IMG/VR virus record: IMGVR_UViG_3300023174_002247
Location: 1-26,185 of that record
Length of the DNA: 26,185 nt
Reading direction: 5' to 3' (one strand)
Origin: a virus
Shown here: one piece after another, positions 1 through 20,236 of the stretch
How positions within the stretch are numbered: the stretch's first letter is position 1
Layout: every line of letters begins with the position of its first letter
The notes under the pieces: generated by a model
Database searches by the model: none
Seen by the model: only the letters and a program-made list of their open reading frames with translations
What the model was told of the DNA's origin: nothing
Program-made: the position numbers and the translations under genes

Positions 1-803
1 ACAGCATGTTGTGGTTCTTTTGCTCTTACCGTTGCCTTACGATGTGTTTTTGGACCATCACCTTTACTCACTTGAACTTGCACATGGTGTTTTGTTGGAG
101 TATGATACTCATCATCTTCTCGTTCTTGCATAACATCTTCTTTAACTGGTTTTTTAGGATTCAATAAAGCTGCACCGGCACGTTCTTCACGTTCACGTTG
201 CTCTTTTGCTCTTTGTAATGCTCTTTGCATACGAACCGCAGCAGATGTTGCCTCTGTTACAGTACCACTTGCAACTGTCTTACCTTTCTTAACAGTAAGA
301 TTTGCAGGTGATGCATCACCAGATGGGATATCACCCATTTCTTTCGCTTCATTCATTTCTGAAGTCATGTAATCACATGATGTTTGAATGTAATCGGCTG
401 CAAGAGTAATCTTTGATTGAACCCACTCAGGCAAATCAGTATCAGGTTTCAACATATCCATAAGATATTCTGAATGGCGAACAATAGTCTTCAACTGATT
501 CATCGCCATGTCACCTTCATAACCATATTCTTCTTCGTCTTTTGCTTCTGCAACTCTTTCTCTTGCGGCAGATTTAGAGATGCCATGTTTTTTAACAAAA
601 GATGTTTTATCAAGAGCACCCAAATCTCCTTTAACTTGAGGCATAACAATCTCAGAAACAATTTCTTCTGATGTTACTTGAGGTGCAGGTTTAGTAGGTC
701 TTTTTGGTGCGGAAGAAGTAAATCTACCACCAACTGCTTCACGACCAGGTTCTGGTTTTGAAGATGGTGTAACTTCTTCTGAAAGTTTTCTAAACTTTTT
801 CAT
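1..803 (-). CDS. Virion-internal/prohead-associated protein, partial (C-terminus outside window)
   Basis: An open frame starts with ATG at 803 and stays open to the window edge (267 codons), so the C-terminus is missing. Its ATG overlaps the stop of the upstream gene (ATGA), suggesting translational coupling. The start reads MKKFRKLSEE, a lysine/phenylalanine-rich leader with an L-S-E triplet of the kind cut by T4 prohead protease. Residues about 12-50 are rich in Pro, Ser and Lys. About 93-150 form a compact segment (EYGYEGDMA..., then LPEWVQSKIT, then AADYI) that I recognise from many marine T4-like phage proteins of unknown role. The rest is charged and low in complexity. A role as a prohead core or internal protein is inferred from leader and context; no enzymatic motif is visible. 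Confidence 0.75.
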   Translation of the reverse strand, partial: MKKFRKLSEEVTPSSKPEPGREAVGGRFTSSAPKRPTKPAPQVTSEEIVSEIVMPQVKGDLGALDKTSFVKKHGISKSAARERVAEAKDEEEYGYEGDMAMNQLKTIVRHSEYLMDMLKPDTDLPEWVQSKITLAADYIQTSCDYMTSEMNEAKEMGDIPSGDASPANLTVKKGKTVASGTVTEATSAAVRMQRALQRAKEQREREERAGAALLNPKKPVKEDVMQEREDDEYHTPTKHHVQVQVSKGDGPKTHRKATVRAKEPQHA

Positions 804-2072: not shown

Positions 2073-3037
2073 CTCCTAAGAGCTTTGTTAATTGGAGAAT
2101 CAGGGTCTCTCGCATTTTCAGGATTAGTCAATCTTTTTTTCATGCCACCCATTCTACTGCAAAAAGATTTTCTTCTTGAAGCTCTCTTACCAGTAGGATT
2201 CTTTTCTGTTACAGCAGTCTTTAATTTAGAACCAGGATGTTCTCTACGATAAGCATTAACTGCCTTCTGTGAAAGACCATCTGTCTTATCGTGTTTGTTG
2301 ACTGATTGCCAATCTTCATTCAGTTGTTGTTCTTGTAAGTATTTGGCTGCATCATCTACGATAGTAGATTCAGATTTCCAACCACCACCCATTTCTTTAT
2401 ATTTCTTTGCTGCCCAACCATTTGCATATGCAGATGGATAAACATCAAACTTGGCCTTTGCTTGTGCTTTTGCCTGTGCCCATTTTTCTGGACTAGTTGG
2501 TACATTTTTTTCGTCTAGTTGTTCCATAGATTCGCTTATCTTTCCTTTTCCAAAGTTAGACACATTGATAGGTTTACCCTTTCTTTCTGGATCGGGGTCA
2601 TTTCTTCTTTTTGCACGAACAGCAGATGCTCTTTCTTTTTTACTTAGTTGAGCTCTCTTTTCATTTGACATACATTTAGGTTTAGGTTCACCTGGTTCTC
2701 TTGCACAAGGACCGATTGCTTCACCTTTACTATTGATTCTTTTCCAACCACCTTCTGGATCAGTTTTACTGAACCATCTACGCAAATCTTCTTTGAGTTC
2801 TGCTTTTCTTTCAGCATTAGACTTACGATTTGGATGGTCTGGATTCTTATAAGGAGTTTTTCTCATACCTTCAGAATCATAATCACCAGATTTCTTCTTC
2901 GCAATCGCTGTTGCTGCGGCAATAGCTGCAGCTGCGCCTTCTTTCACACATGAACCAGCTGAGTAAGGTGTCTTACCTGGTTTTGGTTTATAACCAGGCC
3001 AACATCTATTCTCTAAAAAATTCTTTAATGTTTTCAT
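2060..3037 (-). CDS. Basic multi-module protein (DUF5872/DUF6321-like), probable internal virion protein
   Basis: A 325-residue, very basic protein starting MKTLKNFLEN, which resembles the T4 capsid-targeting leader. Three modules can be seen. Residues about 81-160 are a Lys/Arg-rich block with RRWFSKTDPEGGW and GPCAREPG. Residues about 180-222 resemble DUF5872 (SPEKWAQAKAQAKAKF, YPSAYANGWAAKKYKEMGGG). Residues about 241-325 resemble DUF6321 (KTDGLSQKAVNAYRREHPGS, SFCSRMGGMKKRL, ARDPDSPINKALRRWNC). These modules occur in marine phages and giant viruses, with unknown function. The linkers contain I/L-x-E triplets (ISE 168-170, LDE 174-176, LNE 239-241), possible prohead-protease sites. The gene starts by ATGA overlap with the 812-residue gene upstream. 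Nucleic-acid binding is inferred from the charge. Family names are from memory. Confidence 0.8.
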   Translation of the reverse strand: MKTLKNFLENRCWPGYKPKPGKTPYSAGSCVKEGAAAAIAAATAIAKKKSGDYDSEGMRKTPYKNPDHPNRKSNAERKAELKEDLRRWFSKTDPEGGWKRINSKGEAIGPCAREPGEPKPKCMSNEKRAQLSKKERASAVRAKRRNDPDPERKGKPINVSNFGKGKISESMEQLDEKNVPTSPEKWAQAKAQAKAKFDVYPSAYANGWAAKKYKEMGGGWKSESTIVDDAAKYLQEQQLNEDWQSVNKHDKTDGLSQKAVNAYRREHPGSKLKTAVTEKNPTGKRASRRKSFCSRMGGMKKRLTNPENARDPDSPINKALRRWNC

Positions 3038-5472
3038 GAGCTGATAGACTTATTTGCTTTGAATGATTTAAGGTTGATACCTTTTCTTTTCAATTCTAAT
3101 TCTCTTTCATCAGAATTAGATGTTGCATCTTCACCACCTGCACCAATAGTTTCATCCATGATTGATGCTTTACCTTTTCTTTTCAGATTAATCTTTTCAC
3201 CAGATGGTCGTGCCAAATTTTCACCAGAAGCCGCCATTGATAGACCAGTCTCTATACCTTGGTCGATACTTTCTTGGTGGTTCTGGATTGCGGCTTTTTG
3301 TTTTGACCTGATTTGGTTGAGGGTGATTTTTTCTTTGTTGGGTTTTGCTTCACCTTGGCCTTGCTCGGTGCTTTTGATTCCGATACTAAGGGCTGCTGGG
3401 GTGTAGTTTTGATTTCCACTTTCGGCTCCGAGATTACTAATTCTTCCTTCGGCAAGGAAGGTTGCGGTTCTTTTTCGATTGGTTGTTTTGCTTTGCTCAA
3501 AAAGCTCTTGATTAGTTTCAACATTATCATTCTCCTCTTTTATTTTTATTACATATCCCTTTGGGTGTTTCATTACTTCACCACCACGCAGGTGAGATTC
3601 TTTCGCTGCTGAACGGCGAATCAAAAAGATTCTTGGTTTGCCATCTTTACCACGCAACAGTTTGGCTTTCTTTTCTTCAAAAATTGAATTAATGTCTGCG
3701 TTGGATAATTCTTGTGAGTATTGTTTCTCACCAATTACATCCATTGTCTTACCAAGTGTTAAACTTTCATTATGATTGGATAGACCATCATATTCTTCTT
3801 CTGATTGTTCTGCGGTGTAACCAGTTTGCATCGAACTCATCATACTTTGAACTTCTTCAACTGTATCACCAGTGATTGAAACTGTTACTGATTCAGATAA
3901 GAATTTTTCAAATTGTTCATTAACTTTTTTAGGTACTGGTTTCTTCATTGAACTTCCTGAGGTTGGAACATTAGGTTCTTTGTGTGGTTCTTTTTCAACC
4001 TCAACAAGTTTATCATGCACAACTCTATGTGTTACTGTGCCGTCTTTACCATATCTACCAAAACCATAATACTTCAGACCCATCTTGCGGGCTTCTTCTG
4101 CGCCACCTGAATCTGGATGTGGTGTTTGTTCTGCACCATCGTTTGATATAGGTTGTGTGTCTTTCTTTTGCAACTCCATCGCAACCCATGCGGATGCAAT
4201 AGGATTCTCTGGTGGTTTTGCAACAAATTCTTTTATCTTTGTGAACATCTGAAGCATCTCATCTTTTTTAGCCTTGATTACTTCAGGTGGTGCTTTGCGT
4301 AAATCTTCAGAGTTATCAAACTCCATGTAGTTATCACCAAACAACTTTGCAAATTCAGGACGACCTGCTTGAACACCATCCCACTTTTCTTTGCGAATGT
4401 TTTCTGGTACGGTACGACCACCACGTTGACCACGTTCTATATTTCTTTGTTTAGAAACTTCATCGGCAGTATTAACTAGAACCATTGATGATTCATAACC
4501 AACTTCTTCTAATTTACTTTTAATCTTTGAAATCTTTTCTATATCATCACCAGTGCCATTGATAATCAAACCATTACGACCTAGAATTGCCAACTTTTGG
4601 CGTAACTCTGTCATATTCTTGGCCTTACCACGAACAAGGTTTCTCTTATCTTCTTCTGATGCAGGCATGGTCTTATCAAGACCTTCTTTATCCATCAAAA
4701 ACTCAAGTGCCTTATCTGAATTCATTTCGGTCATTCCATGACCTGCAAGTGTATTATCTAACACATAATCTTTACCAGAACCAGGACCACCTGCTAAGAA
4801 TACTGCTTTAAAGATTGCTTTATCATGGACACCTTCAAACAAAAGAGATTCAAATTGTTCATTAATACTTTCTTTGATTTGCATACCTTTACGAACATCA
4901 TGGAACATTTCTTTTGCATGGTGTTCAGGTACATGTGATGGCACACCTTTTTTAAATTCTTTAAAATTACCAGAAGAAGCATGACTTCGCATTTTAGATG
5001 CAGACATACCGGCAGTACCTTCGGCATCAGGATCTCTTTGACCTGCACTATGAACTGTTATCTTTTTGAAGTTGTATAATTTACCTTCACCAGTACCGTT
5101 ATACTGTGCAAGTTTCTTTTTGTATTCTGGAACACGGTCTGAACCTGCAACCATGTGTAAATGTGTTACACCTTTTTTGTGTAATTCGGCTGCATGAGAT
5201 AGGAATGTAGGTGATTCTTTACTAGACGTAGAAATATTAGTCTTTGGGAAGAATCGTTTTGCGTGTTTGACTTTATCAGCAGAGGATAAAGGATTCTTGT
5301 CCTTATCTTGTGTGTGTGATAGGACTACGCTGTGAGTTGCGCCATGTTCTTTGGCAACATCTTTGACTTTGTTTACAAGAACTTCATGTCCTGTAGTTGG
5401 AGGCGACATGCGGCCAAATGCCATGACATGGTGAACCTCTTTATTTTCACTAATAAATTCTCTAAATTTCAT
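3034..5472 (-). CDS. Multidomain nucleotidyltransferase-P-loop kinase protein with capsid-targeting-like leader
   Basis: An 812-residue late protein. Residues 1-9 (MKFREFISE) match the T4 capsid-targeting leader pattern. Residues about 14-195 are a HIGH-superfamily nucleotidyltransferase: PPTTGH at 24-29 and SASKMR at 157-162 correspond to the T/HxGH and ISSTxxR motifs, as in NMN adenylyltransferases and cytidylyltransferases. Residues about 218-415 are a P-loop kinase with Walker A GGPGSGKD (228-235), IINGTGDD (303-310) and a lid-like RNIERGQRGGR (343-353), recalling polynucleotide kinase or zeta-toxin folds. About 455-490 holds GLKYYGFGRYGKDG, seen in other marine phage proteins; 529-645 is unassigned and the tail is charged. 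Leader-like NEQFE...LxE elements recur at 203-213 and 517-527 between domains. The pairing also recalls NadR. Substrates unknown. Confidence 0.85.
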   Translation of the reverse strand: MKFREFISENKEVHHVMAFGRMSPPTTGHEVLVNKVKDVAKEHGATHSVVLSHTQDKDKNPLSSADKVKHAKRFFPKTNISTSSKESPTFLSHAAELHKKGVTHLHMVAGSDRVPEYKKKLAQYNGTGEGKLYNFKKITVHSAGQRDPDAEGTAGMSASKMRSHASSGNFKEFKKGVPSHVPEHHAKEMFHDVRKGMQIKESINEQFESLLFEGVHDKAIFKAVFLAGGPGSGKDYVLDNTLAGHGMTEMNSDKALEFLMDKEGLDKTMPASEEDKRNLVRGKAKNMTELRQKLAILGRNGLIINGTGDDIEKISKIKSKLEEVGYESSMVLVNTADEVSKQRNIERGQRGGRTVPENIRKEKWDGVQAGRPEFAKLFGDNYMEFDNSEDLRKAPPEVIKAKKDEMLQMFTKIKEFVAKPPENPIASAWVAMELQKKDTQPISNDGAEQTPHPDSGGAEEARKMGLKYYGFGRYGKDGTVTHRVVHDKLVEVEKEPHKEPNVPTSGSSMKKPVPKKVNEQFEKFLSESVTVSITGDTVEEVQSMMSSMQTGYTAEQSEEEYDGLSNHNESLTLGKTMDVIGEKQYSQELSNADINSIFEEKKAKLLRGKDGKPRIFLIRRSAAKESHLRGGEVMKHPKGYVIKIKEENDNVETNQELFEQSKTTNRKRTATFLAEGRISNLGAESGNQNYTPAALSIGIKSTEQGQGEAKPNKEKITLNQIRSKQKAAIQNHQESIDQGIETGLSMAASGENLARPSGEKINLKRKGKASIMDETIGAGGEDATSNSDERELELKRKGINLKSFKANKSISS
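3252..3524 (-). CDS. Possible overprinted gene inside the 812-residue gene (+1 frame)
   Basis: A 90-codon frame in the +1 frame of the larger gene. Its ATG at 3524 has a near-perfect AAAGAGGAG Shine-Dalgarno sequence with seven bases of spacing, and stop codons lie just upstream, so it would start independently. The product begins MLKLIKSFLSKA, continues with a Pro/Glu/Lys-rich stretch, and ends in a Lys/Ser/Thr-rich basic tail. Across this interval the main frame uses C in third positions far more often than neighbouring regions, as expected if those bases are also second positions of another coding frame. The Shine-Dalgarno sequence also simply encodes Lys-Glu-Glu in the main frame, so chance cannot be excluded. 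No family recognised. Confidence 0.28.
   Translation of the reverse strand: MLKLIKSFLSKAKQPIEKEPQPSLPKEELVISEPKVEIKTTPQQPLVSESKAPSKAKVKQNPTKKKSPSTKSGQNKKPQSRTTKKVSTKV
3907..3923 (-). repeat. 17-base direct repeat copy 2 (encodes NEQFE at second interdomain element)
   Basis: An exact copy of 4849-4865. It encodes the NEQFE part of VNEQFEKFLSE (residues 517-527), which precedes the domain beginning SVTVSITGD. Outside the repeated core the two copies differ but keep hydrophobic residues and an L-x-E ending. Confidence 0.8.
4849..4865 (-). repeat. 17-base direct repeat copy 1 (encodes NEQFE at an interdomain element)
   Basis: An exact 17-base match to 3907-3923 inside the 812-residue gene. It encodes the NEQFE part of the interdomain element INEQFESLLFE (residues 203-213), between the nucleotidyltransferase and kinase domains. 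The repeat suggests duplication of a leader-like cassette. Confidence 0.8.
5446..5472 (-). other. Capsid-targeting-like leader peptide of the 812-residue protein
   Basis: The first nine codons read MKFREFISE. The T4 internal proteins IPI-IPIII begin with a capsid-targeting peptide close to MKTYQEFIAE, cut by gp21 after the I-x-E. Here M-K, the aromatic, F-I and the final x-E are kept. Function inferred from this similarity. Confidence 0.55.
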
Positions 5473-7458: not shown

Positions 7459-7461
7459 AAT

Positions 7462-8013: not shown

Positions 8014-8765
8014 AATTTTCTTTCTATATCATCTTCTATACATTTATCACCATACTGTATCTCAACAAGTTTCAATGGTTCTATACTTTCATTTCGTAAT
8101 TGATGCCAATCACCTATAGGTATATCAAGACTTTCATTCTTTTGAATAGTTATAAGTTTTGCGGAGTTATTTCTTTCTATGGAAACTTTTGCAATACCCT
8201 CAACAACATGCCAATATTCATTACGATATTCATGTCGTTGCATACTTAGTGATTTGCCAGGTTCAACTGTCAATTCTTTTACTTTTGTATTTGGTGTTTG
8301 ATATAACACACGATAGTAACCCCAAGGTCTTTCTGTTTTAGGTGCCTTCCACTCATCAAGTATCCATGATGAAGAATTTTGTTTATGATTACCACCTACA
8401 CCAAATGCAAACTCCAAATTATCATCTGGATAATCCATCTCTAATGTATTCTTGTCTCCTCTATCACCACCATTTGCAAATATGATAGTGTCATTTGGAA
8501 ATGTTTGTCTTACTAATTTGATTGCATTTTTGGAAGAATTATCATCATCGTTATATTCAATAACAAAGTCTACCGTCTTCAATGCTTGAATTATTTTACT
8601 TCTTTCAAACCAAGGCATAAAAGGTTGACCTTTCTTACGGATCAACCATTCATCAGAATTAATACCAACAACTAATTTATCACCTAAGTTTCTTGCAGCT
8701 TGAAAGTAAGAAATATGACCTGAATGTATCGGATCAAAACCACCTGTTACAAGAACAATCTTCAT
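8010..8765 (-). CDS. Fusion of HldE/TagD-type nucleotidyltransferase and mannose-6-phosphate-isomerase-like cupin
   Basis: A 251-residue two-domain protein. Residues 1-about 135 are a HIGH-type cytidylyltransferase-like domain (GGFDPIHSGH at 8-17, VVGINSDEW at 32-40), closest in style to the adenylyltransferase half of HldE. Residues about 144-250 are a type II phosphomannose isomerase cupin: ERPWGYYRVL (145-154), SMQRHEYRNEYWHVVEG (174-190) with likely metal ligands Q176, H178, E183, then H221, and GDKCIEDDIER near the end. It sits next to gmhA and in the same run as hddA. The first domain may therefore activate heptose 1-phosphate, a step for which no separate HddC-type guanylyltransferase is present. 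The base used (ADP, CDP or GDP) and the cupin's activity are uncertain. Confidence 0.85.
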   Translation of the reverse strand: MKIVLVTGGFDPIHSGHISYFQAARNLGDKLVVGINSDEWLIRKKGQPFMPWFERSKIIQALKTVDFVIEYNDDDNSSKNAIKLVRQTFPNDTIIFANGGDRGDKNTLEMDYPDDNLEFAFGVGGNHKQNSSSWILDEWKAPKTERPWGYYRVLYQTPNTKVKELTVEPGKSLSMQRHEYRNEYWHVVEGIAKVSIERNNSAKLITIQKNESLDIPIGDWHQLRNESIEPLKLVEIQYGDKCIEDDIERKL

Positions 8766-9343
8766 AGTTTAATTCCATTATTTTTATTGTGCATCATTCG
8801 AATCTCTTGTGCAAGAATATGCATTAATGATTGATGACAATCTTCAACGATACCATAATTATTATCTTTAATATGTAAAACATAGTCTGCAAGTTTAGCG
8901 GCTTCACCACCTTCAAAACCTACAAATGCAATTACATACATGTTCAATTCTTTTGCTTTTTGAATTGCCTTGATAATGTTAGTAGAATTGCCACTTGCAG
9001 AAATGGCAACAAGAATATCACCTGCACTACCTTTCATACTCAATTGAAATGAAAATACATCTTCATATCCAATATCATTAGCAATTGCAGTTAGTATAGA
9101 ACCTGAAGTTAATGGTTCTATTCTAGGCCTTAGAAGTGCATCATAGTGTGTACCTTTTGCATGGTCACAATGAAAGTGGTCACTCATCGTAAGAGAACCA
9201 CCGTTGCCACAAACAAATACAGGAATTCGTTTGCGATATGCAATGTCTAAAGCTTCTACTACGTTTTGTAATTGTTTTTCATCTACAGATTTTAGTCCTG
9301 CACATACTCTATCTGCGTAATCAATTAGTCTTGGTTGCAACAT
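8762..9343 (-). CDS. gmhA: Sedoheptulose-7-phosphate isomerase (SIS domain)
   Basis: A 193-residue SIS-domain enzyme that converts sedoheptulose 7-phosphate to D-glycero-D-manno-heptose 7-phosphate, the entry to heptose nucleotides. Phosphate-binding GNGGS lies at 46-50 and ISASGNS at 114-120, the two hallmarks of GmhA. The C-terminal VEDCHQSLMHILAQ (166-179) corresponds to the active-site helix with conserved Gln/His. Length equals that of bacterial GmhA (about 190). It overlaps the GDP-fucose synthase gene by 23 bases and the fusion gene by ATGA. Function within the SIS family is supported by hddA nearby; high confidence. Confidence 0.9.
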   Translation of the reverse strand: MLQPRLIDYADRVCAGLKSVDEKQLQNVVEALDIAYRKRIPVFVCGNGGSLTMSDHFHCDHAKGTHYDALLRPRIEPLTSGSILTAIANDIGYEDVFSFQLSMKGSAGDILVAISASGNSTNIIKAIQKAKELNMYVIAFVGFEGGEAAKLADYVLHIKDNNYGIVEDCHQSLMHILAQEIRMMHNKNNGIKL

Positions 9344-10274
9344 TATTTAAATACCACTCATAAGTTAGTTTGAGACCATCAATCAATTCTACTCTAGGTT
9401 TCCATCCCAAAGAATTAATCTTACTGTTATCGGTAAGTTTACTCATTGCACCATCTGGTCTAGTTGTATCATACTCTATTCCACCTTGATAGTCAACTAC
9501 TTCTGCGGTAATCTTTACAAATTCACTAATTGGAATATCGTAACCTGAACCTAAGTTTACATAATTACATCTTGGTTCTGTAACGGCATCCCACTTATCT
9601 TTTTCTACATTCATTACATGGATACATGCCTCTGCCATATCTTCTGAATATAAAAATTCTCGTCTTGGTCGACCTGTTCCCCAAATCTTAACGATATTAT
9701 CACCATTAATCTTTGCAGTATGCATTTTGTGAATGATACCTGCGGCAACGTGACCTGCATCCACATCAAAGTTATCACCTGGTCCATAAAGATTACAAGG
9801 TAAAACACTACGATAATCACGACCATATTGTCTATTGTAACTCTCACACATTTTCACACCTGCAATCTTTGCAACTGCATATGGTTCATTCGTTGGTTCT
9901 AAATGACCAGTCATCAATAGATTTTCTTTAATAGGTTGTTCTGTTACTCTTGGATAGATACAGTTTGAACCTAACATCAATAACTTTTGAACATCATTAA
10001 CATGAGATGCATGAATGACATTCGTTTGAATCATTAAGTTATGATAGATGAAGTCTGCGGGATAAACATTGTTTGAATATACACCACCAACTTTTGCGGC
10101 AGCCAAGTAGACTTGGTCGAATTTTTCTTTTGCAAAGAATTCATTAACTAATGCTTGATTAGATAAGTCTAGTTCTTTATGTGTGCGAACAACTATCTCA
10201 TGTTCGGTGTTTTTTAAAATCTTGTGAATAGTAGAACCTACTAGTCCACGGTGTCCTGCCAAAAATATTCTCAT
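9321..10274 (-). CDS. fcl: GDP-L-fucose synthase (epimerase/reductase)
   Basis: A 317-residue short-chain dehydrogenase (WcaG family) that turns GDP-4-keto-6-deoxy-mannose into GDP-L-fucose with NADPH. GHRGLVG lies at 7-13, GSNCIYP at 102-108, and YAVAK at 132-136 (Y132, K136). The epimerase residues of the E. coli enzyme (Cys109 and His179) correspond here to C105 and H175, both present, so the full 3,5-epimerase plus 4-reductase activity is likely. EPTNEPYA and ESYNRQYGRDYRSV are nearly identical to the E. coli protein. AGAGGA precedes the ATG by six bases. It may also act on the dehydrated heptose nucleotide, as WcaG-like enzymes do in 6-deoxy-heptose pathways. Confidence 0.92.
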   Translation of the reverse strand: MRIFLAGHRGLVGSTIHKILKNTEHEIVVRTHKELDLSNQALVNEFFAKEKFDQVYLAAAKVGGVYSNNVYPADFIYHNLMIQTNVIHASHVNDVQKLLMLGSNCIYPRVTEQPIKENLLMTGHLEPTNEPYAVAKIAGVKMCESYNRQYGRDYRSVLPCNLYGPGDNFDVDAGHVAAGIIHKMHTAKINGDNIVKIWGTGRPRREFLYSEDMAEACIHVMNVEKDKWDAVTEPRCNYVNLGSGYDIPISEFVKITAEVVDYQGGIEYDTTRPDGAMSKLTDNSKINSLGWKPRVELIDGLKLTYEWYLNNVATKTN

Positions 10275-10276
10275 AA

Positions 10277-11269
10277 TTAATCCTCTAAATCTTGATAGTC
10301 ATGGTAAATCATTTGACTGCCGAGATATTCAAAATCGACAGGCACTTCTTTCAGTTTCAATTGTTCTGCTACTCTTTTATGTAGTTGTGGTGGTGTGAGA
10401 AACAATATAAATCCACCACCACCTGCACCTAGTAGTTTACCACCTACTGCACCTGCAGCAATACCCCTATTATAGATATCATCAATATCACTATTAGTAA
10501 TAGACTTCTCTATACTCTTTTTAATTTGCCATTGTTCATTCAATAGTTCTGCAAACTCTAATGTCTTGCCTGCAAACAATAACTTCTCGGCCTCAACTGT
10601 TAATTCTTGCATCAAATTCAAATTAACTTTTTTATCTTTGATATTATTGATTTTCTTATCGGCAATATCATGTGCGTTTCTTAATTGTTCGGTGAAGAAT
10701 AATTGAACCCATGATTCTAATTCATCTAATGAACTCTTTTTCAATGGCAATGGAGAACAGGTAAAGTTTGATACACCACCAAAGTCAATACGATTGAACC
10801 CACCAAATGCAGCTGCGACTTGGTCTTGTGACCCAACAGATTCACCTAAAATATTTTGTTCTAAATGAATTGCTCTCTGTGCCAATTCTCTTTTAGTTAT
10901 TTGTCCATGTTTTAATGCAGATAGTCCATGCAATAAAGAAACAGAGAAACTGGAACTAGAACCAATACCTGTTCTATTAGGTAAATCACCATGATGTGTG
11001 ATATCAAGTCCATGTTCAAAACCCATATACTTGATTGCTTCACGAATAACTGGAAATTCTATTTCATCAATCGTTTGTGTTTCTTGTCTTTCGTAATAAC
11101 GAACTCTATACTTGTAATCAAATATATTAGGTAACTTTCTTAAAACAAGGAATGAATATTTGTTGATAGAAGTAGACAGAACACTACCACCATGTTCTTT
11201 GTACCATGCAGGATAATCCGTACCACCACCAAAGAATGAAATACGGAAAGGTGTTCTAATAATAATCAT
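10277..11269 (-). CDS. hddA: D-glycero-alpha-D-manno-heptose-7-phosphate kinase (GHMP family)
   Basis: A 330-residue GHMP kinase predicted to phosphorylate C1 of heptose 7-phosphate. The N-terminal RTPFRISFFGGGTDYPAW is diagnostic for HddA-like kinases. LPNRTGIGSSSSFSVSLL (96-113) is the ATP loop, GSQDQ at 146-150 carries the likely catalytic Asp149, and GGKLLGAGGGGFILFL (276-291) is motif 3. Length is normal. The gene overlaps the upstream dehydratase by ATGA and lies two genes from gmhA. HddA kinases feed GDP-heptose synthesis, whereas HldE feeds the ADP-heptose route, so the cluster points to GDP-linked heptose. The GmhB phosphatase that follows in the pathway is not in the window. Confidence 0.9.
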   Translation of the reverse strand: MIIIRTPFRISFFGGGTDYPAWYKEHGGSVLSTSINKYSFLVLRKLPNIFDYKYRVRYYERQETQTIDEIEFPVIREAIKYMGFEHGLDITHHGDLPNRTGIGSSSSFSVSLLHGLSALKHGQITKRELAQRAIHLEQNILGESVGSQDQVAAAFGGFNRIDFGGVSNFTCSPLPLKKSSLDELESWVQLFFTEQLRNAHDIADKKINNIKDKKVNLNLMQELTVEAEKLLFAGKTLEFAELLNEQWQIKKSIEKSITNSDIDDIYNRGIAAGAVGGKLLGAGGGGFILFLTPPQLHKRVAEQLKLKEVPVDFEYLGSQMIYHDYQDLED

Positions 11270-12279
11270 CTAATTACAAATTTTCCGTTGTTCTCTGCAA
11301 CACGTTCACGCCAATAGTTTAACAAATCTCTCATTGTAGTTTCAAATGAAATCTCTGGTTTCCATCCTGTATGCAATCTAAACTTTTCTGTATTTGGAAC
11401 TTGTAAGTCTGCATCAATTGGTCTTAACCTATCAGGGTCAGTTACAATTTTAATTTGTTCACGCATTGGTGACATAGACAACAACTGATTCAATACATCA
11501 CTAATCTCACAAGTATATGTACCACCAATGTTATAATACTGACCTGGTGTTGGATTAACTGTGACTAACATATAGTAGGCACGAACTGCATCACGGACAT
11601 CCGCAATAGTTCTTAGACTTTTTAAATTGCCAACTTTAACAACTGGTTCAATATGTCCGGCCTCAATCATAGCAATTTGTTTTGCGAATGTTGATTCTGC
11701 AAATACATCACCACGCCTTGGACCTGTATGAGTAAACATACGGGTAGTCATAATATTCATGTTGTATGCCTCTGCATAAAATCTACCGATAAGGTCTGTA
11801 CCGACTTTAGATATGGCATATGGTGATGCAGGATGAAAGGAACATTCTTCGTCAATTGGAAGTTTTTCTTTTGGAACTCTTCCAAACACTTCCGATGAAG
11901 CGCAAACATGAATGACTGCATCTGGCACATACTTTTTACATGCTTCTAATAGGCGTGTGGTACCTTGAATATTGATATTCATAGTATCAAGTGGTGCGGT
12001 AAAACTTGTTTTGGGGAAACTTTGTGCGGCAAGATGAAACACATAATCAGGTTTAGTTTCTTTGATTGCCGTGTCCATTGAAAGACTATCGTTCAAATCA
12101 CCATAGACTAATCTCACACGATGTTTGTTATTGATATTCTCAACCAAACTTTTGATGTTGTCAAGTGGACTTCTCCAACGAATAAGTCCAACAACGTCCC
12201 AATCAGTATTCTCAATTAAATATTCTGCAAGGTGAGAACCAACCATGCCTGTAATGCCAGTAATAAACGCAGTTTTCAT
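11266..12279 (-). CDS. NDP-sugar 4,6-dehydratase, GDP-mannose/GDP-heptose dehydratase-like
   Basis: A 337-residue extended short-chain dehydrogenase. GITGMVG at 8-14 binds NAD(P), CASSEVFG at 126-133 and Y154-x3-K158 are the catalytic elements, and THTGPRRGDVF (184-193) plus VGNLKSLRTIADVRD (216-230) match the nucleotide-sugar site of Gmd relatives. It differs clearly from the canonical Gmd at 6487-7458 and looks more like the GDP-6-deoxy-heptose (DmhA/WcbK) branch. With gmhA and hddA next door, dehydration of GDP-D-glycero-D-manno-heptose is the favoured role. GDP-mannose is the alternative substrate. Overlaps both neighbours by four bases. Confidence 0.85.
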   Translation of the reverse strand: MKTAFITGITGMVGSHLAEYLIENTDWDVVGLIRWRSPLDNIKSLVENINNKHRVRLVYGDLNDSLSMDTAIKETKPDYVFHLAAQSFPKTSFTAPLDTMNINIQGTTRLLEACKKYVPDAVIHVCASSEVFGRVPKEKLPIDEECSFHPASPYAISKVGTDLIGRFYAEAYNMNIMTTRMFTHTGPRRGDVFAESTFAKQIAMIEAGHIEPVVKVGNLKSLRTIADVRDAVRAYYMLVTVNPTPGQYYNIGGTYTCEISDVLNQLLSMSPMREQIKIVTDPDRLRPIDADLQVPNTEKFRLHTGWKPEISFETTMRDLLNYWRERVAENNGKFVIR

Positions 12280-13265
12280 TCCGAAGCCTCAATCATATCA
12301 TTTAACCTATTCACATAGGTATGTTTATCTTTCACTTTTTTCATTTGATTCAAAATCAAATCTTTAGTTTTTGGATTATCTTGCATTTCTTTTGCAACAT
12401 GAAACAAATCTTTTGTGTTATCGGCATATGCAACTTCACCATCAAAGAAATCATATGTTTCTTTTGAGTTAGTCAAACATAATGCACCATAACTAATATT
12501 TTTAATTGACCTACAAGATATGTATCCGTTTGCCAAATGATTGTTAGGTCTTGCATCTAGTGGTAGATAAGATTGCACAACTGCAACTCTCATTTGTTCA
12601 ATTGATAATGGATTCTCCCAAGGTGTGTTATACACAAATGGCATATCATTCTTTTTACATTCTTCAATAAAAGGAACAAACATCTCTTGGTTGTCTTCTC
12701 TGATTGTACCACCGAAGAAAGCATACTTAGGGTCTTGAAACGGAGTCAATCGTGTTTCAAAATCTATTTCATTTGGTAACAAATCTGTAGCCCAAATAGA
12801 ATAGAAGATATCATAATCATCACGTTTCTCAATGAAAGAAGTTCCATTTCCAATTGGTGTGTATTTTTCTTTTTCAAACTTGTATGCATAGTTCTTATCT
12901 GGTACACCATCAACACCCCAATTACATGCAAAGCGAAAATCAATTAGTTTACCAACACGTCCAAGATACATATCTGCACCTGGATTTCCTTCAACTGGTC
13001 CTTTATTACCAAGGTAGTGAATGATGTAAGTAGAAGACTTTCTTAATGGTAAGTTATTACTATTTCCATTTGCAAACACTAACCATTGTTCTGAAATAAT
13101 TAATGCATCATCGAAGAATTCTTCTGCTAAGTTATCACGGTTATCTAACCAATAGATTGGAATACCCAAGTAATCACCTGCACGAATAATTGCATGATGA
13201 ACAAAAGCATGAGTGTGTCCTGTATCAGGTTTTGCACCCCATACAATTACTTTACTATGTTTCAT
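12276..13265 (-). CDS. Putative GT-B glycosyltransferase
   Basis: A 329-residue protein. The N-terminus KVIVWGAKPDTGHTHAF and the stretch to about 150 look like a Rossmann half. The C-terminal segment ISYGALCLTNSKETYDFF followed by EVAYADNTKDLFHVAKEMQ and a closing HTYVNRLNDMI matches the donor domain of glycosyltransferase group 1-like proteins (PF13524 type), where a conserved Gly-Ala/x-Cys-Leu-Thr strand and a final His-Thr-Tyr helix are typical. No signal peptide or membrane segment. The gene is embedded in the sugar-nucleotide run with four-base overlaps. Donor and acceptor unknown. Confidence 0.65.
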   Translation of the reverse strand: MKHSKVIVWGAKPDTGHTHAFVHHAIIRAGDYLGIPIYWLDNRDNLAEEFFDDALIISEQWLVFANGNSNNLPLRKSSTYIIHYLGNKGPVEGNPGADMYLGRVGKLIDFRFACNWGVDGVPDKNYAYKFEKEKYTPIGNGTSFIEKRDDYDIFYSIWATDLLPNEIDFETRLTPFQDPKYAFFGGTIREDNQEMFVPFIEECKKNDMPFVYNTPWENPLSIEQMRVAVVQSYLPLDARPNNHLANGYISCRSIKNISYGALCLTNSKETYDFFDGEVAYADNTKDLFHVAKEMQDNPKTKDLILNQMKKVKDKHTYVNRLNDMIEASE

Positions 13266-13912
13266 GTTTTAATCTTAAACCACGCTTGTTGTTCAACAAT
13301 TTCAACATCTACTTTACCAAAAAATTCTCTCAAAGCTTTATCTACTGTTGGAATATAAATGTCATGGCCTGCAAAGATACCACCTTTTTTAACTTTAGGA
13401 TAAAAGTTTTTAAAGTCTCGTAATGCACCTTCATATGAATGGTCACCATCAATGAAAATAAAATCTAAACTTTCATCTTCTATTGTCTTTACAAATTCTT
13501 CACTTGAAGTATATACAAATTCAATTTTATCAGTATGGAGTTTCAAACGATTAGCTGCATGTTCTTTCATAGCCTCTTGTCTATCTTCACCTATAACAGT
13601 TCCATTCCAATCAATAAAAGAAGGATAATGGTCTACTGCATATAGTTTCTTTAGATTAGGAATTTCTTTTGCATAAAGTTCTGTAGTGACACCAAGGCAA
13701 ACTCCAATCTCAACACCAATCAAATCACCTTTTAGTTTTTTGATATGTTCTACAAGACCAGAACCAGAAATGTTTTTCTCACCCCATTCAACTTGTTTTT
13801 GAACCCACTCTTTAGGTGGTAAATGGTTGTATGGGTCAGAAGAACCGGGAGTTTGTGGACTAGTTTGTCTGATTATATTATCTGTTGTGTCTATTGTAAA
13901 AATTTCACTCAT
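13262..13912 (-). CDS. Class I SAM-dependent methyltransferase (Methyltransf_24-like)
   Basis: A 216-residue protein. GVEIGVCLGVTT (66-77) is motif I; AVDHYPSFIDW (92-102) provides the acidic ribose-binding residue; LDFIFIDGDHSYEG (149-162) and GGIFAGHDI (177-185) are characteristic of the Methyltransf_24 family, which includes metal-dependent sugar O-methyltransferases. D155, D157 and H158 could bind a metal. AGAGG six bases before the ATG is the ribosome binding site, and the start overlaps the preceding glycosyltransferase gene by eight bases. Methylation of a fucose or heptose residue is likely from context, not proven. Confidence 0.83.
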   Translation of the reverse strand: MSEIFTIDTTDNIIRQTSPQTPGSSDPYNHLPPKEWVQKQVEWGEKNISGSGLVEHIKKLKGDLIGVEIGVCLGVTTELYAKEIPNLKKLYAVDHYPSFIDWNGTVIGEDRQEAMKEHAANRLKLHTDKIEFVYTSSEEFVKTIEDESLDFIFIDGDHSYEGALRDFKNFYPKVKKGGIFAGHDIYIPTVDKALREFFGKVDVEIVEQQAWFKIKT

Positions 13913-14759
13913 ATTTGGCCTCTATAATTTTTTTCCACTCTGGTACTCTGTCATACTGGTGAACGATGGAGAAAGGAACACCTTCACTAGTGCATATCAT
14001 ATTATCTACTAAAATAGGATTTTTTTCAACCAGCTTGTTACCATATTTGCCTGCAATCTGAGGACCTGTAGTGCCAAGTTGTGCTGCATACCCATCTTCA
14101 GACATAGCAAAATTTGTAATGTCTTTATAAGATTTCATATTCAAAAGAATGTTTAAAGCGGCTTGGTCTGGACCACCACCGCCTTCTGTGAAATGATTTG
14201 TGCTATTACATAACATATAGATGTTCAAAAACAAATCACTCATTGTATCAAATTTACCTGAGATTGTACCGGCGTTATAAATTAAATTTTCTTTATTGTG
14301 TTCGTGTATGAGGGCACCAAATGCTTTCATAAGATTATGACTGCCCCATTCTTCATCTTGGTAACGAATAGATTCACAGGCAACATTAATTTCTTTGTTG
14401 CCAAGATTGTTTTCTAACCAAGTTGAGGGGTTTGTTTGAAAGATAACATCTTTAACATCTGTAGTAATGATGTTACGATATTGTCCTTTGAATCGCTTGA
14501 GTAAGAACCAAAGGTGTAAAAATCTCTCAACTACAATTGAGAAGTTTTCTTTATACTCAAATCGTTTCTTTTCATCATTCTTTTTAAATGCAAGAATGGT
14601 ATAGTTTCGCTTCACTAATTCATCAACTGTTTCATAATCTACATTATAACAAATCATGGCTTTTGTGCCATCAAAACCGCAAGTGTCTAGGGAATTAACC
14701 CAAGGCTTAATTTTATCAAAAGTGTATCCTGTGATACAACCAACCACTATATCATTCAT
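13905..14759 (-). CDS. Putative GT-A glycosyltransferase
   Basis: A 284-residue protein. The ATG at 14759 is chosen because GGAG lies six bases upstream; an in-frame TTG at 14771 would add four residues but has no ribosome binding site. IVVGCITGYTFDKIKPWVNS starts a Rossmann-like GT-A fold. IITTDVKDVIFQTNP (97-110) holds a D-x-x-D (D101, D104) resembling the metal-binding DxD, NAGTISGKF lies at 162-170, and GGGPDQAALN at 194-203 corresponds to the acceptor/Asp loop of such enzymes. First gene of the glycan island, 16 bases after a small conserved phage gene. Donor unknown. Confidence 0.72.
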   Translation of the reverse strand: MNDIVVGCITGYTFDKIKPWVNSLDTCGFDGTKAMICYNVDYETVDELVKRNYTILAFKKNDEKKRFEYKENFSIVVERFLHLWFLLKRFKGQYRNIITTDVKDVIFQTNPSTWLENNLGNKEINVACESIRYQDEEWGSHNLMKAFGALIHEHNKENLIYNAGTISGKFDTMSDLFLNIYMLCNSTNHFTEGGGGPDQAALNILLNMKSYKDITNFAMSEDGYAAQLGTTGPQIAGKYGNKLVEKNPILVDNMICTSEGVPFSIVHQYDRVPEWKKIIEAKYE

Positions 14760-14775
14760 AACAAACTCCAATTAA

Positions 14776-14953: not shown

Positions 14954-15226
14954 TTAACCTCTAGTCAACGATAAAACTTTTTGAATTTGTTTTTCAATAA
15001 TTGGTCCACGATTTGGCCAATTAATATATGGTTTGTCGGCAGTTTTTAAAAGATTTGTTAAAAATGGCATAATAAGTTTTTCAACTTCTGTTAATCTATG
15101 TTTATACTTCTCAACAGTTTCATCTTTCTCATTAATTACCGCATTGTATTCTTCTTCTGATACCGCAGAGAATCCAAAATCATTGTCACCATACTCTGCC
15201 ATAATTTTGTTTATATCATATGCCAT
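14954..15226 (-). CDS. Small conserved phage protein, 90 residues
   Basis: A 90-residue protein starting MAYDINKIMAEYGDNDFGFS. GGAG lies six bases before the ATG, which shares a base with the stop codon of the preceding gene (TAATG). The N-terminal third is acidic, the middle is a probable helix (NEKDETVEKYKHRLTEVEKL), and the C-terminal YINWPNRGPIIEKQIQKVL is a segment I recognise from many marine T4-like phages. No enzymatic motif. Its constant company with the ligase-like gene suggests a linked late role, which is inference. Confidence 0.75.
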   Translation of the reverse strand: MAYDINKIMAEYGDNDFGFSAVSEEEYNAVINEKDETVEKYKHRLTEVEKLIMPFLTNLLKTADKPYINWPNRGPIIEKQIQKVLSLTRG

Positions 15227-16458
15227 TATTTACTCCAGTTTTTCTGAGCGGTAAAATTCAAATGACTAAACTCAAGTCTATCTACTAACTTAACTGCATT
15301 ACCTGTTAGTTTATCAACTGCAACAAAACCTTCAGGATTTGTCACTTTGAAACCATCTTCTGTTTGAACAAAGGTACTAGTAACTTGTTTCATTTGTTGC
15401 AACTTTTTGATAATCATATTCTTGGCATCAACCATGCCGTTTTGCATATCAAATATATTCTTCAAATCATTTGCAGAACCACGGAGAGTTCGCATGATTT
15501 CATTCTTAATCATTGTCTTATCTCTCTTTGTTTTATCCATCTTTGCTTCAATAATCTTATCATTTAATTTATCTTCAACCCACTTCAATAGTTCTCTTGT
15601 ATGTGCGGCAGTATTTGTAATTTTTTGGCCTTCACGCACTTTGGTGTTGTTGAATGTCTTAATGTATTCTCTAATAACATCATTACTTGATATTCTACCA
15701 ACAGACATAGAATTTGTTTGTTTGAATATTGCACCAACAGTAGATAGAATAGAAGTTATTTTTTTTGTTTCTTCTTCTGTGAATGATGCAGTACCAGAGG
15801 CATCAGTAAAATATGCATCACGAAACCAAACATCTTTAGTTGGTGTCAAATTCTTAATATCAATATTGAATGATGCCTTCATATCAGAGAATGTTCTACC
15901 TGTGTATGAAGTATGAAACACAACACCCATTTGTGCAGCCTGCATCGTCTTTGCTAACTTAGAATCAGCAGGCACAGCATAGATTAATGTGTTTGGTTGA
16001 AATGTAATGTAGTCTTCTCCATCAAGTGTTTTCTCTGTGATATCACCTTTTGCAAACATCATATCACCTTGCAGGACACCTTTGATACCAAGTTTTGGAA
16101 GATATCGTAATGCCACTTTAAGTTTTGCATTAAGACCTTCACCTGGATGATTCTTATCAATGTCTGCATCAGTATAATTCAACTTTGCATTTGCATTGAA
16201 TACACCTTTTGTGCCAACAAAGAATTTACCATTGTCTGGATTGATACCACAAAAGATTGCAGGTGAACCATCCCACTTTGTTGTGGTGTTTACTTTTGAC
16301 GATGAATGACCCGCAAGCATATCTCTCAATGCCTGTAAAAAATTGATTGCATCACGACCACCTTGAACACCACGATTCAGAATTTCATCTTCAAGGTGTT
16401 CTAAGTGAAGGTTCGCACCTTCTTTTTTTGCTTCTGTTATAAATTGTGTGAATTTCAT
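15226..16458 (-). CDS. DUF6267-like protein with nucleotidyltransferase/RNA-ligase motifs and capsid-targeting-like leader
   Basis: A 410-residue protein. The first nine residues MKFTQFITE, followed by A, match the T4 capsid-targeting pattern. K61-W-D-G64 fits motif I (KxDG) of covalent nucleotidyltransferases, where the Lys takes the AMP. LQGDMMF (129-135) could be motif III. Near the C-terminus PEGFVAV (E376) and AVKLVDR (K390) fit motifs IV and V of RNA ligases. Between motifs III and IV lies an unusually long insertion of roughly 230 residues with a helical, charged segment (about 286-360), so the fold would be an expanded one. I recall this family as DUF6267 in marine phages. Ligase activity is inferred, not established. 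Confidence 0.78.
   Translation of the reverse strand: MKFTQFITEAKKEGANLHLEHLEDEILNRGVQGGRDAINFLQALRDMLAGHSSSKVNTTTKWDGSPAIFCGINPDNGKFFVGTKGVFNANAKLNYTDADIDKNHPGEGLNAKLKVALRYLPKLGIKGVLQGDMMFAKGDITEKTLDGEDYITFQPNTLIYAVPADSKLAKTMQAAQMGVVFHTSYTGRTFSDMKASFNIDIKNLTPTKDVWFRDAYFTDASGTASFTEEETKKITSILSTVGAIFKQTNSMSVGRISSNDVIREYIKTFNNTKVREGQKITNTAAHTRELLKWVEDKLNDKIIEAKMDKTKRDKTMIKNEIMRTLRGSANDLKNIFDMQNGMVDAKNMIIKKLQQMKQVTSTFVQTEDGFKVTNPEGFVAVDKLTGNAVKLVDRLEFSHLNFTAQKNWSK
16432..16458 (-). other. Capsid-targeting-like leader peptide of the ligase-like protein
   Basis: The first nine codons read MKFTQFITE and the next residue is Ala, as in T4 internal proteins, where cleavage follows the I-x-E. It nearly repeats the leader of the 812-residue protein (MKFREFISE) although the proteins are otherwise unrelated. 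Confidence 0.55.
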
Positions 16459-17732: not shown

Positions 17733-18848
17733 CTACCGTATAATGTCAAGCACTTTATTGCCAGTCCAGACTTCTTGTTCTATCCTAATGCGTTTTTCTG
17801 TTGTTAATGTGTCAAAACGATTCATTGCTTTCTTTCGCCACCATTCAATAATGTTGGCCAAATGATGTTTCTCATAGTTTTCACCAGGTAATAACTTCTC
17901 TGCATCACCATTGACAAACTCTATCATATTTTTAAATCCATAGTCTGAAATGAAGTATCGTTTCTGTTCATTCAAATTCTTTGCATTTTCAATAGTCAAC
18001 TTAAATTTATCACCTTCTGGTGTGCCTTTAAGTGCAACTTTAATTAGATTGACCATCGTGTTAGATATCTTTAGTTTGCGACTGGATGCATCTTGTGGTG
18101 CCAAATCTTCACCCACAATACCTTCAATGTAATCTTTTAGGTCTGTATATGTCTTGCCATGCAACATAGGCAAGAAGTCACTATCAGTCAAACCTTTAAA
18201 ACGAATCAGAGGTTTCATGCCATCATATTGTGATACTGCCTTGGAACTGCCATACAAACTGGTAGTCTCAAACAAACAGGTTGTCATCTTATACTTGTCA
18301 TCAAGCATCTTACGAACTTCATGTGTGGTGCAGATTGCAGCCAGTAATTTACCACCAAGATAATTAAAACCAAATGGTTGTGCAGGTACGATAACAAATC
18401 CCATCGCAGCACAAGCATTGAATCGTTGAGCACCACCTTCGTGTTGTGTGAATACTCGACCCAACATATCATTACGAGGTTTACAATTGATAACAGGAGA
18501 ACCAAGACGAATGAAACCAACCCACTTGTTAGTTTTCTTTTCTAATACTGCCAATCGTAAACAACGACCAGGTATGCTTGTCATGTTAGAATGACTAGAA
18601 ATCATATCCAAATAAGTGTCCCATCGGTCTTGTGGTAGTTCAATTAGTTCAAACTCCATATCCGCAGGTGACATTGTAAAATTGGAGAACAAGTCTTCTT
18701 CAGGTCCCATACCAAAGAGGACAGGTGACCTCTCTGCCATCGAGGCCAGTTTTTGTTCACGCATGTATTCATCAATACGACCAAACTTATCAAAGTAGTC
18801 TGAGAATACATTTGCACCATGAACGGCTTGTTCGTGTGTTAACTTCAT
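17733..18848 (-). CDS. DUF4338/DruA-like protein
   Basis: A 371-residue protein. Residues about 94-205 follow the layout of DUF4338 (DruA family). LRLAVLEKKTNKWVGFIRLG (97-116) corresponds to the LRYLV...LGxLxFG strand pair, RFNACAAMGFVIVP (142-155) to the N-x-RFLILP strand, and YLGGKLLAAI (163-172) to the following helix. YKMTTCLFETTSLYG (186-200) corresponds to the YG-x-x-P-x-LLETFVD segment. DruA belongs to the Druantia defence system; its reaction is not established. The C-terminal 120 residues (helical, ending in a WWRKK-containing segment) lack a recognised family. It overlaps the helicase gene by ATGA, so it is expressed with replication proteins. Family call from pattern memory, moderate confidence. 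Confidence 0.6.
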   Translation of the reverse strand: MKLTHEQAVHGANVFSDYFDKFGRIDEYMREQKLASMAERSPVLFGMGPEEDLFSNFTMSPADMEFELIELPQDRWDTYLDMISSHSNMTSIPGRCLRLAVLEKKTNKWVGFIRLGSPVINCKPRNDMLGRVFTQHEGGAQRFNACAAMGFVIVPAQPFGFNYLGGKLLAAICTTHEVRKMLDDKYKMTTCLFETTSLYGSSKAVSQYDGMKPLIRFKGLTDSDFLPMLHGKTYTDLKDYIEGIVGEDLAPQDASSRKLKISNTMVNLIKVALKGTPEGDKFKLTIENAKNLNEQKRYFISDYGFKNMIEFVNGDAEKLLPGENYEKHHLANIIEWWRKKAMNRFDTLTTEKRIRIEQEVWTGNKVLDIIR

Positions 18849-20236
18849 ACTTTTAGACCACCAAAGTCTTTTCTACGTTCTCTATTACCAAATGTGTTTA
18901 TCGGTTTATCTGGAATGCCTGCATCAGCAATATCTTGTTGTGCAGATTCTTCAGCATCATATAGTCTCATCTTTGCTCTGTCGATACCAAGAACAAATCT
19001 CTTATACAAATTAGGGTCACCATAACGATTCTTCAATTGTTTAACAAGAATCTGACCTAAGGCTTCAAGTTCTTCATTACTCACCAATGCAAACATAAAG
19101 TCAGCAGTAGCAGGTAGACCAAACGATTCAGAAGTATCTTCGAGACCAGGATCCGAATTACTGAAACCACTACGAGTTGTTTGTGTCGCAGAGACAACTG
19201 GTAATGCAAACTCAACGGCAAGACCACGGAGTTCTTCTGCAATCGCCTTGATGTATGAATAACTGTTTACGTTTGCGCCAGGTTTAATTCGTGCCGAACA
19301 ACAAATGTTTAGATAATCAATAAAGATAATATCTGGTCTAAAGTTCTTCTTCAAAGCCAAATCATTTAATAATGCACGGAAGTGTAGAACACTTGCACTT
19401 GCAGTTGGATATTCTTTAATGATTAACTTACCTTGTGTCTTAGATTTCAATGCAGAAAATTTTCTTGTGTAATCTTCTTTACTAATTGTTCTCAATTCAT
19501 CTAGGTCAATATTTAGCAAGTTAGCATCAATGCGTTCTGCAATCTTTTCTTCTGCCATTTCCATTGTGATATAGAGAACATTTTGTCCTTGTGACAAATT
19601 ACCTGCAGCAACGTGACACATAAACAAAGACTTACCAACACCAGTGCCAGCAAGTGCAATGTTTAGAGTTTTGATTGGGAGACCACCTTTCGTAATCTTA
19701 TTAAAGAGGTCAAGGTCGAAACGAATACGAGATTCTACTTTGTGGTATGAATCATAACGAGAATCAAAGTCTTGTGTGTAATCGTGACCAATGTTATTAT
19801 CAAAAGAAACACCAAGAGCATCACTTAGAAGTTGTGGGATTTCACCCTTAGTTCTTTTCTCACTCTTACTGTCCAAGATAGAGACAGATTCCATAATTGC
19901 ATTATAGATGGCCTTGTCTTGGCAAAACTTTTCAGTCTGTTCAATTAACCATTGTGTTTCGGTTGGTTCATCTTTATCAGAATGGACTTTGTTTAGTAGT
20001 GCAATTGCCTCTTGCACTTGAGGTTCAGTTAGATTTTTCTTCTCTGTAAAATTGATTACAAGTGCCTCATGTGTAGGAGGATTCTTGTATTGGTTTATGA
20101 ATTCAAATATTTCTTTGAATACAATCTTTTCTGCATTGTCTGAAAAATAATCTGGTCGAATGAATGGTAATACCTTGCGGATATATTCCTCATTGTAAAT
20201 CAAGTTTTTGATTATCGTCTGTTCTAATCTGTTCAT
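18845..20236 (-). CDS. 41: Replicative DNA helicase, T4 gp41/DnaB family
   Basis: A 463-residue RecA-fold hexameric helicase that should unwind DNA ahead of the polymerase and work with a gp61-type primase (not in window). Residues 1-about 115 resemble the helical N-terminal domain of gp41/DnaB. Walker A is AGTGVGKS (196-203), Walker B is DIIFIDYLN (302-310, D307), the Gln of motif H3 is in SATQTTRSGFSNSD (349-362), and RYGDPN near 405 is in the usual arginine-finger region. Length matches T4 gp41 (475). The start overlaps the preceding small gene by 47 bases, with a weak AGG ribosome site. Confidence 0.93.
   Translation of the reverse strand: MNRLEQTIIKNLIYNEEYIRKVLPFIRPDYFSDNAEKIVFKEIFEFINQYKNPPTHEALVINFTEKKNLTEPQVQEAIALLNKVHSDKDEPTETQWLIEQTEKFCQDKAIYNAIMESVSILDSKSEKRTKGEIPQLLSDALGVSFDNNIGHDYTQDFDSRYDSYHKVESRIRFDLDLFNKITKGGLPIKTLNIALAGTGVGKSLFMCHVAAGNLSQGQNVLYITMEMAEEKIAERIDANLLNIDLDELRTISKEDYTRKFSALKSKTQGKLIIKEYPTASASVLHFRALLNDLALKKNFRPDIIFIDYLNICCSARIKPGANVNSYSYIKAIAEELRGLAVEFALPVVSATQTTRSGFSNSDPGLEDTSESFGLPATADFMFALVSNEELEALGQILVKQLKNRYGDPNLYKRFVLGIDRAKMRLYDAEESAQQDIADAGIPDKPINTFGNRERRKDFGGLKV

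Follow-up and report, generated by a model that had tools for sequence, protein, structure and literature searches.

A putative T4-type capsid-targeting leader on a ligase-like DUF6267 protein and other enzymes of T4-like phages

The window and its two main leader-bearing genes

The whole stretch of DNA analyzed here (the window, 26,185 nt) is a 26-kb piece of a T4-like phage genome of a Kyanoviridae-like, marine/freshwater lineage, and no structural genes lie within these 26 kb. The isolate nearest to the window by its DUF6267 protein is Methylophilales phage Melnitz (49% identity), followed by C48C1, Stenotrophomonas phage DLP_6, HTVC008M and cyanophages. Two genes and their N-terminal leaders are of main concern:

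15226..16458, minus strand: DUF6267 gene, 410 aa, ligase-like nucleotidyltransferase (Pfam PF19782, motifs, weak fold matches)
16432..16458, minus strand: leader MKFTQFITE of the DUF6267 protein, predicted cut after E9 (conservation; model)
3034..5472, minus strand: 812-aa protein, cytidylyltransferase (NMNAT-like), Zeta-toxin-like kinase and basic tail (phrog_3041, phrog_395, PF06414)
5446..5472, minus strand: leader MKFREFISE of the 812-aa protein (homologue conservation)

The DUF6267 protein matches PF19782 with an E-value of 8.5e-110 over the entire profile (1-376 of 376). K61-W-D-G, E376-G377-F-V379 and K390 are invariant or nearly so among 47 homologues, and we take KWDG, EGFV and the following Lys to be motifs I, IV and V of the covalent nucleotidyltransferases (DNA/RNA ligases). 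Foldseek against the PDB also placed DNA/RNA ligases at the top, with matches that were not significant (best E 0.07), and a PDB sequence search gave no usable match. "RNA-ligase-like", the name used in the earlier note, is a fair but tentative label. The best viral match is a 591-aa fusion with a cytidylyltransferase in S-PM2.

The 812-aa protein was assigned by Pfam and PHROGs to a cytidylyltransferase (phrog_3041, phrog_395) joined to a Zeta-toxin-like P-loop kinase. Its cytidylyltransferase/NMNAT-like part (phrog_3041, E 8.9e-67) has the (T/H)xGH and SxxxxR motifs of that family, as TTGH at residues 26-29 and MSASKMR, and a PDB sequence search of the protein returned only weak adenylate-kinase matches in the kinase part. 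The bodies of the two proteins are unrelated, since Pfam and PHROGs place each in different families, as the earlier note had held. The N-termini it had read, MKFTQFITE-AKKEG (DUF6267, start 16458, minus strand) and MKFREFISE-NKEVH (812-aa protein, start 5472), were confirmed from the sequence, and this nine-residue stretch with F-x-x-F-I-x-E is the sole part that the two proteins share.

Between the two genes (5507-14771) lie genes of nucleotide-sugar/glycosyltransferase type, including epimerases/dehydratases, a sugar kinase and methyltransferases (functions assigned by eye). At 17733-18848, in a phage replication region, lies a protein that Pfam matched to a DruA-like (Druantia) family (E 2.7e-8).

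The leader, its T4 counterpart and the predicted cut site

In IPIII of phage T4, residues 4 and 7 govern targeting to the capsid, and residues 8 and 10 govern processing (PMC9026906). The leader F-x-x-F-I-x-E has the same spacing as Y4-x-x-F7-I8-x-E10 of T4 IpII and IpIII (capsid-targeting sequence MKTYQEFIAE), and when aligned at E, these targeting and processing residues coincide with the conserved leader positions. The match to the T4 sequence noted earlier is therefore sound, the spacing being identical and IpII and IpIII being recovered by the scan described below. The reading preferred here, at a probability of about 0.78, is that the nine residues are a T4-type capsid-targeting propeptide, by which an enzyme docks in the head, is cut by gp21 and becomes injected cargo. 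A signal peptide was also considered and rejected, as a hydrophobic core is absent.

N-termini were scanned with the pattern M-x(1-4)-[FYLI]-x-x-[FYL]-[ILMF]-x-E, and the expectation was taken from the rate of its core inside proteins. The window alone has two N-terminal matches (0.15 expected from the internal rate), and 38 (5.07 expected) were counted in a set of 11 T4-like genomes or fragments to which the window belongs. Counted by family, 25 protein families matched, against a shuffled mean of 4.6 and a maximum of 13 (300 shuffles), and none of the 79 proteins of T5, a control that is not T4-like, carried the N-terminal pattern. In T4, the six matches were IpII, IpIII, Alt and gp24, all of which are cut by gp21, together with gp61.1 and one intron endonuclease. 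The intron endonuclease and UvsX of the relative G001 are false matches, and the false rate is accordingly above zero. The two N-termini in the window are not a product of chance. In T4, gp61.1 (18966-19130), a 54-aa hypothetical protein, begins with a perfect capsid-targeting leader (MKTFKEFIKE-DM) and is, judged by this start, likely an unrecognized internal protein.

Conservation of the leader was followed on DUF6267. The first search for relatives included the leader among its patterns; in the second, viral contigs were screened with nothing but two internal peptides, KWDG and F(Q/R)PNT, and nearly all of the 47 aligned homologues were found without use of the leader. In this alignment F3, F/Y6, L/I7 and E9 are kept, and positions 4, 5 and 8 are free. 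Glutamate is present in 45 of the 47 leaders, S or A comes next in most of them, and indels begin directly after E, so that the alignment of homologous N-termini proposed in the earlier note gave the outcome expected of a leader: conservation stops at the cut site. In the AlphaFold model, residues 1-19 are of low confidence and do not belong to the confidently folded body; residues 3-10 form a short helix. The leader of the 812-aa protein is similarly constrained, M1, F3, F6 and E9 being nearly invariant among homologues.

A matching protease was detected in relatives. PF03420, the gp21-family prohead protease, was found in all seven isolates tested and in three of six relatives (G001, G002 and G004), all six records being fragments to some degree and the longest being those with the gene. 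In the major capsid proteins of relatives, a variable propeptide gives way in most cases to a conserved body at L/I-x-E, with A, S or T as the next residue, as in SAFLSE-AAPTN (Melnitz) and GMLTE-TGSPTN (G003). The mature major capsid protein has an N-arm motif, GFTGAAAPEGPVAGYDPLM, which is also contained in two other virion proteins, S-CREM2 gp160 and S-SCSM1 gp97 (L106), with a BLAST E-value of about 1e-5.

Two further proteins in the window begin with weaker versions of the leader:

3008..3037, minus strand: degenerate leader MKTLKNFLEN of the 325-aa DUF6321 protein (gene 2060-3037; homologue leaders)
777..803, minus strand: weak leader MKKFRKLSE of the partial last protein (gene 3-803; kept in homologues)

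The 325-aa protein keeps the aromatic/hydrophobic positions and has N at the cleavage position, where homologues have E (MKSFKSFIAE-RCWPGYK, MKKLKDFISE-RCWPGYK, MKSLKEFINE-GGRCWPGYK) and several others have G. The partial last protein (MKKFRKLSEE) has only L-S-E, and its homologues retain MKKFR.LSEE; in L094, L098 and L100 its 267-aa body forms the rear part of a fusion with another protein, and F-K-x-I/L-S-E stands where the two meet. Homologues thus bear both of these weaker leaders, also pointed out earlier. The missing glutamate suits an alternative in which the leader attaches its protein to the prohead core and is left uncut, or is not always cut, so that packaging proceeds without processing; in T4, Asp at position 10 stops processing but not targeting (PMC9026906). 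A glutamate kept in nearly every DUF6267 leader and followed mostly by small residues, as at known cut sites, would be needless for docking alone, and we consider this alternative unlikely.

Leader-bearing proteins in virions and across families

The propeptide reading was compared with published virion proteomes, which provide tryptic coverage only; no new N-terminus directly following the E was seen. That of S-CREM2 is given with coordinates (PMC10665884 Table 3) and was matched here to the genome; the simple gene caller skipped some annotated starts (gp6, gp14, gp136), and pattern counts for this phage are therefore lower bounds. Five S-CREM2 virion proteins carry the leader at residue 1: the cytidylyltransferase gp154 (MKNFSSFLTE), the SAM lyase/hydrolase gp6 (MKDFDSFLEE), the kinase gp14 (MKRFDAFLTE), gp13 (MKDLHSFLTE) and gp136 (MQTFSMFFSE). 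A Cas9-like virion protein has RFASFMAE about 20 residues in. This protein, gp12, which is annotated as Cas9, gave no Pfam match and only phrog_3561, and it has an odd start in common with S-CRM01 g128 (MTSRWSNWSTG and MRQSRWAKWSRG, respectively) ahead of the offset leader. With the first anchored pattern, 5/6 leader proteins of S-CREM2 belong to the virion set (p 0.003). When only non-structural proteins with a minimum length of 75 aa are counted, the anchored pattern gives 5/7 against 23/122 without it (p 0.005).

In S-SZBM1, the leader-bearing cytidylyltransferase gp140 (MRFRQFIIE) is in the virion list, from which the leaderless DUF6267 protein gp141 and two small leader proteins are absent. 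In S-SCSM1, the NMNAT (MKSFLQFLKE) is a virion protein, and one small leader protein is not in the virion. The S-CRM01 kinase bears MISFDQFLSE, and its virion status is cited in PMC10665884. When the three proteomes were pooled, 7 of 13 pattern-bearing proteins were in virions against 2.5 expected (P 0.005); without S-CREM2 the figure is 2 of 7 and not significant (P 0.28). The association between leader and virion is real, and it leans mainly on one phage, S-CREM2. The earlier proposal that leader-bearing enzymes are packaged in the head thus agrees with the presence of bearers in S-CREM2, S-SZBM1 and S-SCSM1 virions, but draws its statistical weight from the first of these.

Virion enzymes might instead be carried over as abundant late proteins, with the leader serving another purpose, for instance to contact a membrane or the scaffold during infection. 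The authors of two of the proteomes themselves caution that abundant proteins may co-purify with virions, and RegA is among the listed virion proteins of S-SCSM1. Detection in S-CREM2 nevertheless follows the leader: when non-structural proteins shorter than 75 aa are set aside, 6/6 with the loose pattern, which admits the Cas9-like protein and was picked after that protein was seen, are in the virion against 22/123 without it (p 6.6e-5). This alternative is regarded as very unlikely.

Packaging as a property of the leader also agrees with its distribution. Apart from DUF6267 and cytidylyltransferase/kinase proteins, it is found on a RimK-like ATP-grasp protein (Melnitz), a HAD/polynucleotide-kinase-phosphatase-like protein, a protein kinase, a DUF6321 protein, the SAM lyase (PF23780) of G001 and S-CREM2, and several proteins of no named family. 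Melnitz has it on DUF6267, the RimK-like protein and a 361-aa protein, and in a weaker form on its cytidylyltransferase. At least 65 of 72 DUF6267 homologues have it; in L195 and L196, 67% identical to the window's protein, DUF6267 begins at the body (MATKTDKNVHLEH or MATKQDKNVHLEH) and is leaderless, and the others are truncated, split or divergent. Most cyanophage DUF6267 proteins are leaderless: those of S-SZBM1, S-CRM01 and S-WAM1 lack a leader that the cytidylyltransferase of the same phage has, the HTVC008M and S-PM2 homologues have none, and in S-PM2, where DUF6267 and cytidylyltransferase are fused, neither part carries one. The earlier note had named homologues without conserved leaders as evidence against its proposal; such homologues exist, many of them in cyanophages, and the objection holds in part; the patchy presence is read here as modularity. 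The leader is independent of the body, as it occurs on unrelated proteins, is gained and lost, and has its conservation end at the cut site.

That each enzyme conserves this N-terminus simply as part of its own body, and that proteins resemble one another there by coincidence or local duplication, is scarcely credible: the motif is short and unrelated proteins such as UvsX also match the pattern, but the large excess over chance and over the T5 control, the homologues with intact bodies and no leader, the indels that part leader from body, and the low-confidence, detached leader in the model all speak against it.

In some loci, a GIY-YIG endonuclease-like insert, or what remains of one, interrupts the DUF6267 gene just after the leader (L250-L265, L055, L069; also L049, L054, L056, L059, L076, L082 and L038). 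There, a second leader-like ORF (MYNFKNFTMEGSQDVILAEEKSGKNLHLE, then a stop) ends CTT GAG TAA T GAA CAY, and the body of 391 aa lies in frame +1. Either the ribosome bypasses 7 nt, taking off at GAG and landing at GAA, or translation restarts by coupling, in which case the protein would be leaderless. Conservation of the split site was set by the search pattern and hence is no evidence, and Rfam returned nothing at gathering threshold on these loci.

Proposed route, cargo and comparison with known systems

The T4-type propeptide is favored because conservation is position-specific, bearers are unrelated and the leader is gained and lost on conserved bodies, and because relatives have a gp21 gene, L/I-x-E capsid cut sites and virion-borne bearers. 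From T4 (PMC9026906, PMC3012670, PMC9391042) we infer docking, cleavage, retention and injection. As a short amphipathic helix whose two aromatics stand three residues apart, the leader would attach the enzyme to the prohead's scaffold core; the gp21 prohead protease would cut after L/I-x-E (E9) and the leader would depart; the enzyme would remain in the DNA-filled head and enter the cell alongside the DNA. The packaging of DUF6267 is predicted from its leader.

The cargo would comprise the ligase-like DUF6267 protein and the cytidylyltransferase/NMNAT-like protein with its P-loop kinase, and in relatives SAM lyase, RimK-like ATP-grasp protein, HAD phosphatase and protein kinase. By analogy with T4, these phages probably inject a small ready-made enzyme kit with their DNA. 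T4 IPI blocks a restriction enzyme and IPIII is required on one host strain; because of these roles, first-response defense is the leading idea for the cargo, which would be active at time zero and would have first-response host defenses as its most plausible target (RNA end repair, NAD and SAM control).

The 812-aa protein contains exactly three copies of the core motif (3-9, 207-213 and 521-527), at domain edges, two of them internal:

4834..4854, minus strand: internal site FESLLFE-G, residues 207-213, cytidylyltransferase/kinase boundary (13-sequence conservation)
3892..3912, minus strand: internal site FEKFLSE-S, residues 521-527, boundary of kinase part and basic tail (motif retention)

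Across 13 sequences F207, L211 and E213 do not vary, and in L101, where the kinase stands alone, the site at 207-213 is its N-terminal leader. At 521-527 the motif is retained and its flanks vary (FEKFLSES, FESFFQEA, FELFLNEE, FESFLEED). The AlphaFold model (13 sequences) is poor (mean pLDDT 51.9); both sites fall in parts of low confidence, 207 in a helix and 521 in a stretch, which is weak evidence. We explain the internal sites by fusion of leader-bearing genes; the fused 267-aa body described above, with its motif at the point of fusion, shows a like arrangement. Cutting at these sites is a prediction, and the protein may be a polyprotein. It is a doubtful, though conceivable, extension that gp21 removes the leader and cuts at 213 and 527, freeing cytidylyltransferase, kinase and basic tail in the capsid, and that these are injected together with DUF6267, phosphatase and SAM lyase as a time-zero set that repairs RNA ends and controls NAD/SAM against host defense.

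Capsid targeting by the T4 leader and the presence of cytidylyltransferases in cyanophage virions are already known. In the literature searched, which took in few subscription journals, three things appear undescribed: the link between leader and virion enzymes, the internal sites, and the occurrence of the leader on phosphatase, RimK-like, SAM lyase and DUF6267 proteins. Capsid targeting and cyanophages came up together there only in a T4 review. Within that scope, the earlier statement that a leader on these families was undescribed stands for the link itself; cytidylyltransferases packaged in cyanophage virions had already been published, without the leader. The leader would provide a sequence rule predicting the particle-borne, injected proteins of abundant marine/freshwater T4-like phages, and would explain the NMNAT, kinases and SAM hydrolase in cyanophage virions. 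The pre-loaded enzymes would be candidates for immediate counter-defense, and the new leaders may be of use for loading proteins into phage heads.

As in T4 IPI, IPII, IPIII and Alt, an N-terminal leader of about 10 residues with the same aromatic/F/I-L/E spacing precedes unrelated cargo, and the same type of protease gene (gp21), here found in relatives, accompanies it. Unlike the T4 internal proteins, the leader has nine residues, the cargo consists of multi-domain metabolic or RNA-type enzymes, the 812-aa protein has internal sites at domain boundaries, and the lineage is Kyanoviridae-like rather than Straboviridae. The virion enzymes of S-CREM2, S-SCSM1, S-SZBM1 and S-CRM01 (NMNAT/cytidylyltransferase, kinases, SAM hydrolase, Cas9-like protein) are comparable, and their cytidylyltransferases are homologous; where checked, the annotated virion-borne enzymes of these cyanophages bear the leader (about 20 residues in for the Cas9-like protein). 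In the portions of those reports consulted, they are described as virion-associated, with no route given, no mention of the leader and no report of DUF6267. In the giant phages phiKZ and SPN3US, a gp21-related protease likewise cuts ejection proteins C-terminal to Glu, but their propeptides differ, being mostly longer than 100 residues and having another motif.
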